Virus record (IMG/VR): IMGVR_UViG_3300023301_000106
Coordinates: 1 to 23,325 of that record
Source: a virus
Direction: 5' to 3' (one strand)
Length of the DNA: 23,325 nucleotides
Numbering within the stretch: the first letter of the stretch is position 1; each line of letters begins with the position of its first letter. This document shows, in pieces, positions 3,356-23,325 of this stretch. A program made the translations under genes and the position numbers. A model generated the notes under the pieces. It had not been told where the DNA came from. It was given only the letters and a program-made list of their open reading frames with translations, and searched no databases.

Positions 3356-3801
3356 GTAAAATTGTTCAAGGTAAAAATGTCATCCTTAAATTTTGGGATG
3401 GAACGGCATATCTGCCAGTGGGATGCTTGACCACAAACAGTATTAACGAGTCTCAGGACATCACAGAGGGAGAACCAAACAAATGCGATACGACTAAACC
3501 TAAATCACAGGGTTCGTATTCCTATGATATTAGCGGGGACGCAGTTATGATATCTTTAGACGATACTGAATATGCTACAAAGGCTCATTACGAGAAATTA
3601 AGAACGCTTTGGGCTGATTCAAGAACGAGCGGTGATGCTATTAATTGGGCTATGGAGGGTAGTAATATTGATTACTATGGTGAAGGGTTTATCACAGAAC
3701 TTTCTGCAAAATATCCAACAGATGGAAGTGCTACTTTCACTATTGGCCTTTCAGGTATTGGAGAAGTGTTATTGACAGACCCAAAAGCTCCAGTAGTTTA
3801 A
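3352..3801 (+). CDS. major tail tube protein, TP901-1 type
   Basis: This 149-aa beta-rich protein polymerises into the tail tube. It carries the usual features of TP901-1-like tube proteins: an N-terminal VQGKNVILKF strand, a CLTTNSINESQDI segment, and a central stretch with conserved Gly and Ser (KSQGSYSYDISGDAV). A helix (YEKLRTLWADSRTSG) follows, and then a strand pair ending in a G-F-I-T-E-L motif and a TFTIGLSGIGEV stretch. Position directly before the assembly chaperone and tape measure genes confirms the role. A divergent relative is encoded at 8825-9316. Confidence 0.82.
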   Translation: MSKIVQGKNVILKFWDGTAYLPVGCLTTNSINESQDITEGEPNKCDTTKPKSQGSYSYDISGDAVMISLDDTEYATKAHYEKLRTLWADSRTSGDAINWAMEGSNIDYYGEGFITELSAKYPTDGSATFTIGLSGIGEVLLTDPKAPVV

Positions 3802-3818
3802 TTTAAAACTAAAACATT

Positions 3819-4199
3819 ATGAAAATCACAGTTAAAGATAAAGAATACGAGCCAAAGTTTGGTATAGGTTTTATGGAACGGGCTATCAAAGAGGACCAAC
3901 CAGAGGGGCAGGATATAATGCAACTGCCGACACAAAGACTTCTGTATCATGCCTTAGCTTATGCCGATGAGCGTAACGGAATAGAGCCACAGTTGACAAA
4001 GTTTGATATTTTTGATTACTTGGATGAAGTTGGTTTAAATTCTAAAGATATTAAGCTGTTTCAAATTGAGTTTTTTAAATCTATGCGAGTTCATTTGCCT
4101 GATAACGAAAGCAAAAAAGCAATCGATGAAGTAGTGAAAGCACTTACGCCTGAGGACAAAAAAAAAGTTTTGAAGAGTGGCAAGAAAACTGGGAAGTAA
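3819..4199 (+). CDS. tail assembly chaperone, short form (lambda gpG analogue)
   Basis: This 126-aa acidic protein is encoded between the tail tube and tape measure genes, the invariable place of the gpG-type chaperone that coats the tape measure during assembly. It is helical ([52 protein letters not shown]). Its C-terminal part, [18 protein letters not shown], is encoded across a nine-A run, after which an overlapping -1 frame is open. This is the classical arrangement for production of a longer frameshifted form. Terminating ribosomes make this short form, which is expected to be the more abundant product. Confidence 0.8.
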   Translation: MKITVKDKEYEPKFGIGFMERAIKEDQPEGQDIMQLPTQRLLYHALAYADERNGIEPQLTKFDIFDYLDEVGLNSKDIKLFQIEFFKSMRVHLPDNESKKAIDEVVKALTPEDKKKVLKSGKKTGK

Positions 4200-4498: not shown

Positions 4499-6905
4499 TG
4501 AATTAAATGTATCGATTGGCGCTGAAATTGACGGCTTACAAAAAGGGCTAGATAAAGCAGGGCGTGAATTAGGTAAGTTTGAAACTAAAATAAATAGTTT
4601 AGCAAAAGTTGGTGATAAACTTTCATCTATAGGTGCGAAAATGTCTATTGGCATAACAGCACCTTTGTCAATTTTAGGAGGTTTAGCTGTTAAAACATTT
4701 GCAGATTTTAGTCAAGAAATGGCAAAAGTAAAAGCTATTTCAGGTGCTACTTCTCATGAGTTTGAAAGCCTTAAAAAGTCAGCTATGGATTTAGGTAGTG
4801 CCACAAGATTTAGCGCAAGCGAGGTCGCAGGGTTGCAGTTAAATTTATCAAAGTTAGGTTTTAATACTAAAGCGATTAACGATTCTACAGGCGCTATACT
4901 AAACTTAGCGCTTGCGACTGGCGAAGATTTAGCACAATCTGCAACGGTGGCAGCATCAACAATACAAGGTTTTGGACTAGCTACGGCTGATGCAGGAAGA
5001 ATAGCGGATGTAATGGCCAAATCATTTTCAAGTTCGGCTTTAGACTTACAGAAATTCAAGGTAGCTATGGCGACGGTTGCGCCAGTAGCAAAGACAGCAA
5101 ATCAAAGTTTAGAAGCTACCACGGCCGCATTATCTATTTTAGTAAATTCAGGTATTGAGGCATCTACAGCGGGGACGGCATTAAGAAACATATTCTTAAA
5201 ATTAGCACAGTCAGGAGTTTCAATGGACGCTGCATTTAAAGATATTAGAGAGTCTTCAAATAAAAGCGCAAAGGCAATTGAGTATTTCGGAATAGAGGGA
5301 GCAACGGCCGCGGTTGTTTTAGCGGATAACGCTGATGCCGCCAAAGCCTTAGAAACTCAATATTTAGCCGCAGGAGGTTCTGCGGAAAAGATGGCTAAGA
5401 TAATGGACAATACTCTTACAGGGTCATTGGCTAATCTTAAATCAGCTACTGAGGGCGCAATGATAGCTATTGGAGAGCAATTAGCGCCAGCAATCAAAAA
5501 AATATCTGAGTTTGTCACAGGATTAATAGGAAAGTTTAACGCATTGGATCCAACTACAAAGAAAATAATAGTCGGTGTAGGTGTTCTAGTTGCTGCTATC
5601 GGGCCATTAATCGGTGGTTTTGGGTTGTTTTTAACATTATTGCCAGCATTAACTGCGGGTGTTGCTTCTCTAGGTGGTGTGTTCGCATTGCTTACTGGAC
5701 CTATTGGTTTAGTCGCCTTAGCCATTGCGGGCGTTGTTTATGCTATTACTGATAATTGGGATAAGATTAAGCCCTATATAGTAAACACAATAAATTATTT
5801 TATTGAATTATACAATGAGAGTAGAGTTTTAAGATACGCTATTGAAAGTTTATCATTGTATTTTAAGAATGCGTTTTCAGTTATTAAAAACGTTTTATCG
5901 ACTGCATACGAGGTCTTTAAATCTTTTGCAAAAGCAACTGCTGATATATTTGGAGGAATTGGGACTATTTTAAAAGGGGTTTTTAGTGGCAGCGTAAGTG
6001 ATATAAGAAAAGGTATTTCAGAAATTGGAAGTGCTTACTACAAAGGTTTTGTAAGTGTAGGTAAAGACATTTCGGACGGTGTAAGTTCAATAATTTCAGA
6101 TTTTGAAGCTAATGATAAACAAAGGTTAGCTAATTTAATAGGGGGAAAAAAAGCATTAATAACCGATATTAAATTATTCGAAGATGGAAAAATAGAAGAA
6201 ACTAAGAAAGAACTTAATGATGATGTAGAAAGTATTATTGGTGGATTAAAAAATACTCCTTTAAATTTAGGTTTTGATTTAACTAATGTAGAAAGTAATT
6301 TTGCAAAATTAGGAGCCACTTTAAGCACGTCGATTGATAATGCGATTACATTATATAGGACGAAAGTTGATGAGTCAAAAGTATTAATAGCCGAAATGAA
6401 TTATAACCTATCTGAAGCATTTTCGAGTATTGTTTCAAGTGGGGTTTCCGACGGAATAGCGAATACATTTGCGGGTATTGGTGACGCGCTGTCCAACGGT
6501 GGTAATGTTATTGATGTAATTGGTAAAGGGATACTAGGAACTATTGGAGATATTGCAATGCAATTGGGTAAGGCCTCTATAGCTGTTGGTGTAGGTATGA
6601 TAGCCATAAAAACAGCTTTTACAAATCCATTTACCGCTATTGCTGCGGGTGTTGCCTTAGTAGCTTTAGGTGCATTTATAAAAGGCTCTGTTTCAAACAT
6701 ACCTAAAGGTGGGGGCGGTGGGTCGGTTCCTTTCAGTGGTGGCTCAAGTGGTGGATACACTTCTCCAAGATCAAGCTCGCCAAGCTCAGGAGGTTTTGGA
6801 GGCGGTACGGTAGTCTTTGAAATAGAAGGGCAAAAATTAGTAGGAGTTTTAAGTCGTACTTTGGAAAGAAACAGACGTTCAGGCGGTCAATTAAATTTAT
6901 TATAA
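4488..6905 (+). CDS. tail tape measure protein
   Basis: This 805-aa protein sets the tail length and leaves through the tube at DNA injection. The N-terminal ~45 residues form a coiled coil. Residues ~60-275 match the TP901 / PhageMin_Tail domain ([63 protein letters not shown]). Long hydrophobic Gly/Ala-rich segments lie at ~360-425 and ~690-735, probably the membrane-active parts. The C-terminus is Gly/Ser-rich and ends in a strand-like segment. At about 0.15 nm per residue the tail would be near 120 nm; that is an inference. The ATG at 4488 overlaps the chaperone frame by 11 nt, and the stop overlaps the next ATG as TAATG. I see no lytic transglycosylase or peptidase motif. Confidence 0.96.
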
Positions 6906-8824
6906 TGGCATTAAAATATACTTTAAATTACACAGATACAATAGGTAAAGAATTTAGAGCCGAAATATTTGACGTTAGATTTATTGGCGAACCATCCGAA
7001 ATACGTGGTAATGCTGTTTTAGAATATGCTAAAGTCGAAAGAGTTTTAGAGTGTTTTAGAGGATCAATGCTTACTTTGAATTTAGAAGCTGACTCAAACA
7101 TAGACTTAACCGATTTGTACTCAGAAAACGAGACCGATTTAACCGTAGATTTTTATATAGATGAAGTCGTTGCTTTTAAGGGATTTGTAAAACCAGATGG
7201 GATTTATACTGATTTTGTAAATGAGCTTTATACTATTTCTTTAGATTGTATAGACGGCTTAGGAGTTCTTAAAAACCTATCTTTTGTAAATAATGTTGGG
7301 GGTTACTTCGTCGGATTCATGAAGGAAATAGACATCGTTTATAATTGCTTGCGTAGAACATCTATACCTATGCCAATAAACGTTGATATTGGCTTATTCC
7401 ATGAGGGGATAATGGTATCAGAGGAATCAACTATAGACGTTTTAAACGCTACCAAATTAAGCGCAGACAGGTTTTATAAAGATGATGAGAAAGACAATAT
7501 AATGGACTGCGATGAGGTGTTAAGGTCTGTTTTAGAAAAATATTGTGCAATCGTCCACCAATATAACGGCGAATGGTATATTTATCGTCCTCAGGATGTG
7601 GCAATTTCTAAAGATGTACAATTCTATAGATATATTAATGGTGTGTATAGCGAGAGGCTACCAGTTAAAAATATATCCTTTGAATTTGGATCACAGATAG
7701 ACGCCTATTACCCGCATCATTGCAATGGAAATCAAAGGATTAATATTAATGGTAGTGTTTCGGCTTTTAGAGTGCATTATAAATACGGCCTTTTAAAAGG
7801 CTTTTTTAATAACGCCAATTTAGTTTGGAATGCTGGAATTATAGACGGATGGAACTTTTTACCCGACAGACAGTTTACTCAATTTTCAGCCGACGGAGGT
7901 GTTAGGTGGGATGGCGAGGCTATAACCTACGGAAATCCAGAACTAGAATCACAAAATGCGAACGTGATAGAAGGTGATTCACTTAGACTTAAGTTAGAGT
8001 TTTACTCAATCGGTTATCATAATGATTTATACGTTACTATCAAATTAACAGATGGAACTCAAACAAAGTATTTTAACGGCACAGAATGGGTTGACTCATT
8101 CACGACCAATGGAAGTTGGGTGATAGAAAATGGATACACAGTCACCGAAACATGCGAAATAAACGGAGGCGAAACTGAATTTGATGATATTACATACGGT
8201 GCGGGCGCTTTATCTTTTAGCCAACCCATAGCGTCTGTTCCTTTTGATGGGTTAATGACTATAATTGTAAACGGGGTTAATGCTAGAGGCACAATATTAG
8301 GATGTATTAACCCTCCTAGCGAAAGCTATTCTTATATAACGCAAATAGGATTCTTGGGAGAATCAATATCAGAAATTACAAAAGGCGAGTTTCACACAGC
8401 AATAAGACAGCCGAGATCATCTAGTATAGTGGAAGATAATATCACTATCTATAACGGTGATATGGAGTCTGATATTTACGAGGGAACAATTAAGACGTTA
8501 GCGAACACAAATACAAGCTCATGGAGACATAAGGGAACAGGTGAAGACAAGGCAATTCTACAAATAATGGTAGAGGACACTGTAAAGGCTCGAATTAGGC
8601 CACAAAAACTATTTATAGGAGACACTTACGGTTCTATGCCTTTTTTAAGCGTGTTCAATATCAATAATATTGAGGGGAATTTATTACCTTTATCTTATAG
8701 ATATGATACATCTAAAAATATTGTATCTTTGGAATTAGTGGAAATACCTGATTACGTTAACCAAAATATAGATTATGAAAAGAATATTGATTATGGCAAC
8801 GTAGTAAAACCAACAATAGTATAG
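6905..8824 (+). CDS. tail tip / distal tail protein
   Basis: This 639-aa protein is encoded directly after the tape measure gene, where siphoviruses encode the distal tail (Dit) and tail-associated (Tal/hub) proteins. The N-terminal ~125 residues are beta-rich (LNYTDTIGKEFRAEIFDVRF, GSMLTLNLEADSNIDLTDLY, VDFYIDEVVAFKGFVKPDG), a pattern consistent with a hub-like domain. A helical middle part follows (IMDCDEVLRSVLEKYCAIVHQ, then NGEWYIYRPQDV). The C-terminal 350 residues are beta-rich with a late SSWRHKG segment. Bacteroidota phages commonly carry a protein of this size here with no named family. The stop is directly followed by the next ATG. The role comes from position, and I see no peptidase motif. 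Confidence 0.6.
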   Translation: MALKYTLNYTDTIGKEFRAEIFDVRFIGEPSEIRGNAVLEYAKVERVLECFRGSMLTLNLEADSNIDLTDLYSENETDLTVDFYIDEVVAFKGFVKPDGIYTDFVNELYTISLDCIDGLGVLKNLSFVNNVGGYFVGFMKEIDIVYNCLRRTSIPMPINVDIGLFHEGIMVSEESTIDVLNATKLSADRFYKDDEKDNIMDCDEVLRSVLEKYCAIVHQYNGEWYIYRPQDVAISKDVQFYRYINGVYSERLPVKNISFEFGSQIDAYYPHHCNGNQRININGSVSAFRVHYKYGLLKGFFNNANLVWNAGIIDGWNFLPDRQFTQFSADGGVRWDGEAITYGNPELESQNANVIEGDSLRLKLEFYSIGYHNDLYVTIKLTDGTQTKYFNGTEWVDSFTTNGSWVIENGYTVTETCEINGGETEFDDITYGAGALSFSQPIASVPFDGLMTIIVNGVNARGTILGCINPPSESYSYITQIGFLGESISEITKGEFHTAIRQPRSSSIVEDNITIYNGDMESDIYEGTIKTLANTNTSSWRHKGTGEDKAILQIMVEDTVKARIRPQKLFIGDTYGSMPFLSVFNINNIEGNLLPLSYRYDTSKNIVSLELVEIPDYVNQNIDYEKNIDYGNVVKPTIV

Positions 8825-19507: not shown

Positions 19508-19714
19508 CTAATAATCATCTTTAATATCCACAATATTAATAACAACCTCTTTTTTTAAAACCTTACATATTGCCTCTAAAGTGCTAATTGATGTGTTGCC
19601 GTTACCTTCTATCTTGCTAATAGTCGGAACAGAAACGCCCGCCATTTTAGCTAAATCAATTTGATTAATTTTCTTATCCTTTCTAATAATCATTAATTGT
19701 GTACCTACCTTCAT
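19508..19714 (-). CDS. XRE-family HTH repressor-like protein
   Basis: This 68-aa protein is almost entirely an HTH_3 domain. Helix 2-turn-helix 3 lies at residues ~16-36 (NQIDLAKMAGVSVPTISKIE), with conserved Gln18, Ala22, Gly26 and Ser32. It is a small repressor-like type without a dimerisation or cleavage domain. It is transcribed away from the early genes across an AT-rich region that contains inverted repeats and opposite promoter-like sequences. It therefore probably controls the lysis-lysogeny switch or the early operon. An antitoxin role is an alternative, but no partner toxin is evident; the 66-aa gene downstream on the same strand is unknown. Confidence 0.82.
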   Translation of the reverse strand: MKVGTQLMIIRKDKKINQIDLAKMAGVSVPTISKIEGNGNTSISTLEAICKVLKKEVVINIVDIKDDY

Positions 19715-20734: not shown

Positions 20735-21418
20735 ATGAGTTGGTTAGAAAGACCCGAAAAAAAGAGTAGCAATCCTGCTGCCAAATTCCTTGAATGGAAA
20801 TCAAATGACAAATGCTTCTCGTACTACGACAAGGAGAAAAAAGAAAACGTCAAAGTGCCACTTCCTTTAAAATTCGTTATACTTGAACATTACCATACTG
20901 TTAAAGGTTGGAATGACGCAAGCGAAAGCGGAATTTATGCAAATGAAGTACTTTATACAGGTTCTGAACAATTAGAAGTCAAATCGTTTAAAGGCGGTGA
21001 AATAGCAAAAGGACTTTACAAAGACATAAGGTCTAAAATTATTGATGCTGGTGGTAAATATCACAGATCAATTTATGCAGTAACCAATGACCTAGAAATT
21101 ATTAACATCGCCATAAAAGGTGCTGCAGTTTCTGAATACTCTAAATTCATTGAGGTTAATGGCGATAATTTTTTTACTCAAAATTGGGTAGAAGTTTCAA
21201 GCGTTGTTGATGGAAAGAAAGGGAGTATCAAATATAGCTCCCCTGTATTTAAAAAGTCAACTGAAATAAAAGACTCTTCAAAGTTAAGACCATTTGCAGA
21301 AACTTTACAAGCATATATGAATGAGTATATGCCTAAGGCGTCAGGTGAACGTTTAGGGTCGGTGGTTGATAAATATGAAGCCGATAAAGAAATGGACGAA
21401 GGAGATTTAGAATTTTAA
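20735..21418 (+). CDS. SSB-like DNA-binding protein with acidic C-terminal tail
   Basis: This is a 227-aa protein. It starts with an N-terminal basic stretch (residues 1-30, LERPEKKSSNPAAKFLEWKSNDK), then a beta-rich core with many aromatics (FSYYDKEKKENVKVPLPLKF, ILEHYHTVKGWN, IYANEVLY, KYHRSIYAVTND, NFFTQNWVEV). The C-terminus ends in an acidic stretch with a final Phe (EADKEMDEGDLEF). That tip is the form seen in SSB and T7 gp2.5 proteins and recruits replication partners. It is the first gene of a well-terminated early unit. No enzyme motif is visible. The SSB role is inferred from the tail and context; a recombination mediator is an alternative. Confidence 0.5.
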   Translation: MSWLERPEKKSSNPAAKFLEWKSNDKCFSYYDKEKKENVKVPLPLKFVILEHYHTVKGWNDASESGIYANEVLYTGSEQLEVKSFKGGEIAKGLYKDIRSKIIDAGGKYHRSIYAVTNDLEIINIAIKGAAVSEYSKFIEVNGDNFFTQNWVEVSSVVDGKKGSIKYSSPVFKKSTEIKDSSKLRPFAETLQAYMNEYMPKASGERLGSVVDKYEADKEMDEGDLEF

Positions 21419-21438
21419 TTAAAAATTAAAAATTAACC

Positions 21439-21469
21439 AAGGCGCATAATTAATTTTATGCGCCTTTTT
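21439..21469 (+). terminator. strong intrinsic terminator
   Basis: AAGGCGCATAA (21439-21449) and TTATGCGCCTT (21456-21466) form a perfect 11-bp stem with a TTAATT loop, followed by a T-run (five Ts including the two in the stem). It lies 20 nt after the SSB-like gene and 18 nt before the next ATG. It should end or strongly reduce transcription, setting a high ratio of SSB-like protein to the next gene. The stem is self-complementary, so it can also act on the minus strand. Confidence 0.85.
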
Positions 21470-21483
21470 AAAAATCAAAAATT

Positions 21484-21921
21484 ATGAGCAAAGATTTATT
21501 TTACTTAATGCGTGAACAAGAGATTGCTACATCAAATTTTTTACCGACAAAAAAAGAGATAACAAAGACGTCTAAAGAGTTTGCGGAAAAACTTATTGAA
21601 GACGGAAACCACAACCCACAGGAGTTATTTGCGCAAGCTTTAAGGCTATCGGAATCTTTGAGTATCATAACCGATGCTTTGAAAAAATCACTACCAGAAG
21701 AAAACTTTGAAGCGTTCGGATTAAAAGGAACTTATAGAAGCGGTGGGGATGCTATAAATTATAAAGAAGACCCTATTTACTGCGCGTTAAAAGAAGATTT
21801 AGACAATCGTACCGAATTGCTTAAAACAGCTCAGAAACAGGATCTAATTGATGCTAGTGGTAATGATGTACCAAAAGTTTCAACTACTCCCCGTAAATCA
21901 AGTTTGGCAATATCTTTTTAG
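21484..21921 (+). CDS. unknown 145-aa early protein
   Basis: This helical, acidic protein has a central stretch PQELFAQALRLSESLSIITDALKKSLPEENFEAFG, then TYRSGGDAINYKEDPIYCALKEDLDNRTELLKTAQKQD. Its C-terminus is conspicuous (VPKVSTTPRKSSLAISF), basic and with alternating polarity. Proteins of about this size and end occur next to SSB-type or recombination genes in Bacteroidota phages, but I cannot name a family. It lies between two terminators, so it either needs its own promoter or depends on read-through from the SSB-like gene. Confidence 0.62.
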   Translation: MSKDLFYLMREQEIATSNFLPTKKEITKTSKEFAEKLIEDGNHNPQELFAQALRLSESLSIITDALKKSLPEENFEAFGLKGTYRSGGDAINYKEDPIYCALKEDLDNRTELLKTAQKQDLIDASGNDVPKVSTTPRKSSLAISF

Positions 21922-21941: not shown

Positions 21942-21976
21942 AAAAACCGTTTACATTTATGTAGGCGGGTTTTTTA
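21942..21976 (+). terminator. intrinsic terminator after the 145-aa gene
   Basis: A stem pairs ACCGTTTACA-like sequence (about 21945-21955) with TGTAGGCGGGT (about 21960-21970) through several G-U pairs, with a TTTA loop, flanked by an A-run before and a GTTTTTTATT tract after. The form A-run, stem, T-run is typical of an intrinsic terminator working in both directions. Confidence 0.7.
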
Positions 21977-21981
21977 TTAAA

Positions 21982-22137
21982 AGACACATTATAGGTAAAG
22001 ACACATTATCGTAATCCTATATACCCCCTACAAAATAGAAATGAATTTCAATATAGGGGGCAGCAAAATACTATTTTAATGTGTCTAATGCGGAATACCT
22101 TTGTATTCATTGACTTTAATGTGTCTTTAAAGTGTCT
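21982..22137. repeat. five TAAWGTGTCT sites around a central hairpin (candidate origin or operator)
   Basis: AGACACATTA occurs at 21982-21991 and 21999-22008, and its exact reverse complement TAATGTGTCT at 22077-22086 and 22117-22126; a variant TAAAGTGTCT lies at 22128-22137. Between the inner copies lies an imperfect hairpin: CCCCCTA (22024-22030) with TAGGGGG (22054-22060), and GAAAT (22038-22042) with ATTTC (22045-22049). The inner sites and hairpin share nearly one dyad axis near 22042. Two right-hand sites are followed by GGAATA at 22092 and 22145. The region is noncoding and just before the HTH and primase genes. Confidence 0.7.
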
Positions 22138-22180
22138 TCAAAGTGGAATAACTGTCTTTTAATAATTTAATGTAATTTTG

Positions 22181-22211
22181 TTTGTTATGTTAATATAAAA
22201 GACTATCTTTA
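22181..22211 (+). promoter_or_regulatory. promoter for the HTH-primase genes
   Basis: TTTG at 22181-22184 is followed by exactly 19 nt and TATCTTTA at 22204-22211, one base from the Bacteroidota -7 form TAnnTTTG. It lies 18 nt before the ATG at 22229 and just downstream of the TAAWGTGTCT sites, so a protein bound there could regulate it. Confidence 0.55.
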
Positions 22212-22228
22212 CTTTTTAAACGAACACT

Positions 22229-22387
22229 ATGACACACTTTAAAAATAAAATAAAGGATAAGGGCTTAAAGATTATTTGGCTTGCCGATAAATGTGATATA
22301 AGCCAACCTTTAATGTCTATGTATCTTAATGGGGATAGACCTATGCCTTTTAAAGTTGAAGACAAATTAAAGGAATTACTTAATTAA
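22229..22387 (+). CDS. small 52-aa helix-turn-helix protein
   Basis: This short ORF encodes a Cro-like HTH protein: THFKNKIKDKGLKIIWLADK, then CDISQPLMSMYLNGDRPMP, then FKVEDKLKELLN. Residues ~13-40 have the XRE pattern (LADKCDISQPLMSMYLNG), in which the turn and second helix are clear. It has no other domain. It is encoded immediately beside the repeated TAAWGTGTCT sites and its promoter, so binding these sites to control its own operon or replication is plausible. Its 5' end (ACACTTTAAA) itself resembles a repeat copy. It precedes the primase by 44 nt. Confidence 0.68.
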   Translation: MTHFKNKIKDKGLKIIWLADKCDISQPLMSMYLNGDRPMPFKVEDKLKELLN

Positions 22388-22431: not shown

Positions 22432-23325
22432 ATGAATATCACAGTATTTAAAGATTTATTTAAAAGCACGGACGTGCCTTTTATAGTCCCTATTGATAAG
22501 GTTATTAGGAGAATAAAAGAGGGCTCTTCTAAAGAACTGATAGATCGTATTAGAAGTTCTAAAAACAAAGAAGAAAAGGATATTTTAAAAAGAAAACTTC
22601 CTGCTATCTTATTTGCTGGGGAGTTTTCAGAACGCAACAAAGATGGATGCACCTCACATTCTGGCTTTATGATTACTGACTTTGATAAATTTCCTAACGA
22701 ATCAGAATACAATATATCGTTTGAATTATTGAAAAACAATAAACACGTTTATTTGATTTTTAGAAGCCCTAGCGGTAATGGATTTAAGGCATTAATAAAG
22801 ATACCTAGATCAGATAAATTTGAGCATACAAAATACTTTAAATCGTTTACAAAGGAGTTTAAATACCAGTATTTTGATATTTCAAATTCAGATATTTCAA
22901 GAGTTTGTTTTGAATCTTATGATCCAGATATTTATGTAAACAAAAACGCTATTGATTTTTCACCTAAACTTATAGATGATGGTTTTGAGTCTAAAGAATA
23001 CTTCTCTTATACACCTTTAATAGATGAAGATAAGATTATTGATAGAATCATGCTATGGGACTGGAAGAAATCCTTTGTAGAGGGTGAAAGGAATAATTTG
23101 ATATTTGATATTTCTGGGGCGTTTTGCGAGTTCGGTATCTCTGAAAGTACAGCGATAGGTTATATTATAAACAACGTTGTTATAGGAGAGTTTTCAGAAG
23201 ATGAAGCAAAGAAGACAATTAAGAACGTTTACCGTAAAAGACAATTTGGAAGCCGAGTATTTGAAGATTACGAAAGAAAAAAGAAGCTACAAAAAGATGT
23301 AATTAAAAAAGATAAGGAGGAAATA
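22432..23325 (+). CDS. VirE-N / BT4734-type primase, 5' part
   Basis: The frame is open from the ATG at 22432 to the window end (298 codons) with no stop, so the gene is incomplete. The N-terminal ~170 residues match the BT4734-like/VirE-N domain of Bacteroidota: a helix KVIRRIKEGSSKELIDRIR, the core LPAILFAGEFSERNKDGCTS, then HSGFMITDFDKFP with acidic residues of the likely catalytic site, and later YLIFRSPSGNGFKALIKIP and DISRVCFESYDPDIYVN. Residues ~225-285 look like the helical PriCT-type linker (KSFVEGERNNLIFDISGAFCEFGI). A helicase domain is expected downstream. This is the first replication gene seen. Confidence 0.8.
   Translation, partial: MNITVFKDLFKSTDVPFIVPIDKVIRRIKEGSSKELIDRIRSSKNKEEKDILKRKLPAILFAGEFSERNKDGCTSHSGFMITDFDKFPNESEYNISFELLKNNKHVYLIFRSPSGNGFKALIKIPRSDKFEHTKYFKSFTKEFKYQYFDISNSDISRVCFESYDPDIYVNKNAIDFSPKLIDDGFESKEYFSYTPLIDEDKIIDRIMLWDWKKSFVEGERNNLIFDISGAFCEFGISESTAIGYIINNVVIGEFSEDEAKKTIKNVYRKRQFGSRVFEDYERKKKLQKDVIKKDKEEI

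Follow-up and report, generated by a model that had tools for sequence, protein, structure and literature searches.

The question raised by this locus is where copying of the DNA begins and which protein finds the place. The window, the whole stretch of DNA that was analysed, is a viral record of 23,325 nucleotides (23.3 kb) whose nearest relatives at the DNA level are Flavobacterium phages; among its genes are one for a tail component (HK97-gp10-like) and further long ones of late type. A second locus, L005, is identical to the window around the region of interest and runs past the window's end, and some of the other related loci are MAGs labelled Flavobacteriaceae. Close to the end of the window, a set of symmetric repeats precedes a primase-helicase gene, and these repeats are, on the reading of the sequence given here, very probably the start site of DNA copying in a flavobacterial phage.

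The word AGACACATTA occurs exactly in four places and nowhere else in the 23,325 bases. Two direct copies form the left iterons (21982..21991 and 21999..22008, plus strand, 17 bp apart) and two inverted copies the first right iterons (22077..22086 and 22117..22126, minus strand), with a one-mismatch variant as a third right iteron (22128..22137, minus strand) 11 bp from the second. Right after the left iterons lies a TCCTATATACC element (22015..22025, plus strand) that matches the CTCTATATACC element of relatives, and the arms of a central hairpin follow as CCCCCTA (22024..22030) and TAGGGGG (22054..22060), both given on the plus strand. The inner iteron pair is centred on 22042.5 and the hairpin on 22042.0, half a base away, and GGAATA stands at 22092 and 22145. 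The preliminary description, made from the letters of this DNA, had reported the two direct and two inverted copies with their variant, the common dyad axis and the GGAATA by the right-hand sites; every coordinate of the repeats was reproduced, as were the axis and both GGAATA copies.

The repeats occupy a noncoding stretch of 307 bases before a small helix-turn-helix (HTH) gene and the primase gene, as had been described. The left border is the intrinsic terminator of the upstream gene (21947..21978, plus strand; a 9-pair stem, a 4-nt loop and a T-run). On the right, the promoter with a 19-nt spacer that had been noticed earlier is found again as TTTG-N19-TATCTTTA at 22181..22211 (plus strand), a pattern match only, which resembles the promoters of Bacteroidetes and would drive the HTH gene and the primase gene. 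It is followed by the 52-aa HTH gene (22229..22387, plus strand), a weak match to phage repressors, and by the start of a 790-aa primase-helicase gene (22432..23325, plus strand; complete in L005 at 5001-7373), the proposed initiator, which begins 295 bp from the last iteron. The proposed origin itself, iterons to iterons, spans 21982..22137 with no strand assigned, and is delimited by its symmetry and repeats and by the like plan in relatives. Further upstream, two genes at 20735-21921 (227 aa, phrog_6706 of unknown function, and 145 aa) come before the repeat region; the same two genes also precede the primase in several relatives, and the replication module may therefore be larger. An N6/N4 DNA methyltransferase gene (Pfam PF01555; 17720-18373, minus strand) opposes the transcription of its neighbours.

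Tests against chance were made at several levels. The most frequent 10-mer of the 307-nt noncoding stretch, counted on both strands, has a multiplicity of 4, a value reached or exceeded in 3 of 5000 dinucleotide shuffles of that stretch; in a scan of the whole record, the only 307-nt windows to attain it were those over this region, and a second repeat score was higher than in 100 of 100 shuffles. Folded as single-stranded DNA, 21980-22140 gives z = -4.55, a low energy that is due to the nested inverted repeats, and the fold energy of the central hairpin alone is unexceptional (z = -1.43). The central segment is 68% A+T against about 66% in the record, so there is no AT enrichment. An Rfam search returned no credible match at the repeat region. 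GC skew was considered as an origin mark and set aside as uninformative, because the skew follows gene direction.

Relatives were collected via the primase (loci L006-L084 and L091-L267), and the region 5' of the primase gene was read in them as in the window. A plan recurs before the primase start in dozens of related phages, in which one to three direct iterons come first and inverted iterons last, 62-102 bp downstream of the left set. The right-hand iterons are often two, 8-11 bp apart, at times with more downstream, and between the two sets there is often a CTATATACC-like element together with C-run and G-run arms. Exact words in inverted orientation at a spacing of 60-99 bp have, in this region, about 6 times the density that they have within the primase gene; the CTCTATATACC element, at a threshold of at least 8 of 11 matches, is present in 11 of 28 lineages versus 1.5% of random windows, and hairpin-like arms of C4+/G4+ in 15 of 43 lineages versus 0.42%. 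The iteron words themselves vary by lineage (GACACATTA, GACACAT, AACACAT, TACACAT, TGCGAAG, TACGAAG, GACGCAA, GACGATA and GACAACT), and words of different lineages align on NNC[AG]. An automatic search found no word clearly above shuffles in about half of 76 lineages. The sister locus L034 has two GACACAT copies in direct order only, with no clear inverted partner, and in elemo, Panino and phi46:1, phages in isolation whose primases are more distant, inspection by eye revealed no evident iteron plan at this place. Two variations were seen in passing: about 340-170 nt before its primase, L034 carries a AGTGGAAT word resembling the GGAATA sites of the window at 22092 and 22145, and in L137, L149 and L227 the hairpin arms between the iteron sets stand in the opposite order, the G-run before the C-run, as though the centre had been flipped.

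The alignment of related phages that the preliminary description had called for comes out in favour of its origin reading, as far as sequence comparison can speak to it: the architecture recurs before homologous primases in many lineages, including those that lack the HTH gene. The same comparison turns against its choice of ligand, the 52-aa HTH protein. No copy of that gene turned up in the relatives checked, the repeats were kept there nonetheless, and the protein was rejected as common ligand on this ground; the primase-helicase is probably the better candidate, judged from the sequences. L146 and L148 do have a small HTH-like gene between the iteron region and the primase, placed as the HTH gene is in the window, but the two kinds of sequence give no alignment and are unrelated.

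Another element of these upstream regions is a leader of pseudoknot topology (stem1a, stem2a, stem1b, stem2b and a T-run) that follows a TAnnTTTG promoter. It was found in 22 of 76 primase lineages versus 0 of 303 control windows, right before the primase in L007 (about 3740-3860), L013, L021, L034, L091, L253 and others, with 125 matches on the primase strand versus 8 on the other in 2.06 Mb, near-duplicate loci being counted. The topology is kept and the stem sequences vary; the leader has no Rfam match and is absent from the window. One copy, at L002:4694, precedes the gene of an endonuclease in Flavobacterium phage mumin6-1. The leader is a candidate for an unnamed regulatory RNA.

The complete 790-aa protein has BT4734-like_N and PriCT_1 domains, a match to AEP primase-polymerases that is weak and below the NCBIfam cut-off, and no match to the Pfam VirE, DUF927, DUF3987 or D5 models in its helicase part. 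Its AlphaFold model (pLDDT 84.6) matches ASFV PrimPol and, through the helicase fold, the SaPI5 primase-helicase 7ola (E 1.5e-13, TMt 0.61). In a separate model of the last 136 residues (pLDDT 87.5), the order is strand-helix-helix-helix-strand-strand, with helix 3 from residue 743, and the C-terminus is predicted from this model to be a winged helix. Matches of this piece in the PDB are weak, most of the best being winged helices, and a profile search of PDB sequences gave no relative. The protein as a whole is predicted to have three parts: a primase of AEP type, a helicase like that of SaPI5 and, at the C-terminus, a winged helix. The PrimQH family (PrimPol-PV1; PMC5862659) has the same order of AEP primase, PriCT-1, ATPase/helicase and C-terminal winged helix, a likeness of domain order in which the AEP call is weak, and PrimQH differs in that the helicase part here lacks the four Pfam matches just named. 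For related AEP proteins it has been suggested that the winged helix takes part in recognising the origin (PMC5862659).

Residues were compared with iteron letters across the lineages, on a tree from which the C-terminal domain was left out. Asn744, where the recognition helix begins, occurs in three clades, (L146, L148), (L014, L017, L203) and (L006, L013, L253), with CGAA iterons in 8 of 8 lineages; L091, which groups with the last of these, carries Arg at this position, and its iteron is TACACTT. Gln744 is found in (L039, L069) and separately in L108, with GACAAC iterons in 3 of 3, and Lys744 mostly goes with CACA/CACT iterons. At residues 743-744, L005 has QK, L253 RN and L108 PQ, which under a residue code would go with iterons of the GACACATT, CGAA and CAAC types, respectively. 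Among 649 columns, 744 ranks first and 743 second when the curated iterons are used. Part of this curated set came from reading iterons by eye, in L146 and L148 at a time when the pattern was already known, and for that reason the analysis was redone with automatic words that were registered blind to the protein. In partial Mantel tests given residues 1-650, these words correlate with residues 700-776 (r 0.39, p 0.001) and with residues 741-748 (r 0.37, p 0.001), and not with the primase or helicase parts.

The rank of the residue 744 column drops to 11-122 with the automatic words and so depends on hand-registered iterons, a loss that is at least partly caused by misregistered words. Control traits reach a partial r of 0.29 for residues 700-776, so that part of the co-divergence at the level of the domain is ancestry; for residues 741-748 they range from -0.16 to 0.18. 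Independent-pairs tests all point in one direction (3:0, 2:0 and about 5:0), with too few pairs for p < 0.05, and earlier sliding Mantel scans over 24 lineages localised no domain convincingly. Since the iteron letters change along with the winged helix, the primase-helicase would be the protein that finds the site; from these sequence comparisons the winged helix is the likely iteron reader, and a residue code at 743-744 is a well-founded hypothesis.

Other explanations of the repeats have to be weighed against this. That they are a chance cluster in AT-rich noncoding DNA would fit the ordinary fold energy of the central hairpin and the base composition, but the shuffle tests speak against it, as does the fact that independent lineages have the repeats in the corresponding position, and it is very improbable indeed. 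The repeats might instead be a multi-site operator only, where a phage repressor, or else the 52-aa HTH protein, acts on the promoter at 22181, with no origin involved; the promoter-like site and the HTH gene directly downstream, and a divergent XRE repressor gene at 19508-19714, speak for such an arrangement. However, the search of relatives with conserved repeats turned up neither of these regulator genes, the repeats lie at least 44 bp upstream of the promoter, the hairpin-centred plan goes with the primase, and the iteron words vary together with the winged helix of that same enzyme, all of which makes an operator alone an improbable account.

Alternatively, the origin may be read by a host initiator or another phage protein, with the primase-helicase recruited secondarily. 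Binding by the primase-helicase is an inference, DnaA-like genes lie nearby in some relatives, and ancestry accounts for part of the co-divergence; yet the iteron words vary among close phages, unlike sites of host proteins, and the association is centred on the recognition helix of the primase-helicase, so that this reading appears about as improbable as the operator. We regard it as quite probable, on the comparisons described, that 21982-22137 is an iteron origin and that the primase-helicase which the phage itself encodes binds it with the C-terminal winged helix.

Several known systems resemble this arrangement in part. In iteron plasmid origins of the RepA/RepE type, short repeats are the sites of the initiator and lie beside its gene, and here too several copies of a short word, beyond chance, lie by the gene of the proposed replication initiator; RepA/RepE-type initiators are without primase or helicase, and their origins differ from this one in that the repeats form direct arrays, flanked on one side by an AT-rich region where opening occurs. 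The alpha protein of satellite phage P4 is a primase and a helicase in a single polypeptide, which also binds its own repeats specifically. The proposed reading of its own sites likens the present protein, by description, to P4 alpha with ori and crr, although alpha is a different primase type and P4 has two separated sites where one is seen here. In PICI origins two iteron sets flank a central region and replication is by their own Pri-Rep (PMC6092414). As in PICI/SaPI origins (pri-rep-ori), two iteron sets here surround a central segment beside a primase-helicase gene, and the helicase fold matches that of SaPI5. Unlike them, the iteron sets here are inverted around a C/G hairpin and the region lies 5' of the primase-helicase gene, both in the window and in those relatives that were read, where theirs lies 3'; the centre is not AT-enriched; and, unlike the satellites, the contigs here carry phage structural genes. 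The region is not classed as a PICI origin because of its AT content, its position 5' of the gene and the structural genes in the window. The proposed origin is of a known kind, that of P4 and phage-satellite origins, in a Bacteroidota phage form that is a new variant; the literature searched held no account of origins of this sort from phages of Bacteroidota.

Iteron binding, melting, priming and autoregulation are the functions that we infer for the primase-helicase. Its molecules would bind the left iterons (21982 and 21999) and the inverted right iterons (22077, 22117 and 22128) through the winged helix, placing two facing assemblies around the central segment with its TCCTATATACC element and CCCCCTA/TAGGGGG hairpin. 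The helicase domains would then open the centre or extrude the hairpin, and the primase domains would start synthesis at the opened centre. Iteron binding may regulate the promoter at 22181 too, autoregulation being possible as an additional role.

For the family as a whole, the chances appear evenly balanced that a large group of Bacteroidota phage primase-helicases reads its own origins by the winged helix, residues 743-744 helping to set the letters (Asn744 with CGAA, Gln744 with CAAC, Lys744 mostly with CACA/CACT). What the analysis offers is a proposed origin with defined limits, a candidate for its initiator and, across more than 40 lineages, a hypothesis of specificity at the level of residues, and the origin could also provide replicons for flavobacterial genetics. 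If true, the 743-744 code would be a natural one that can be read, through which an origin and its initiator diverge together.
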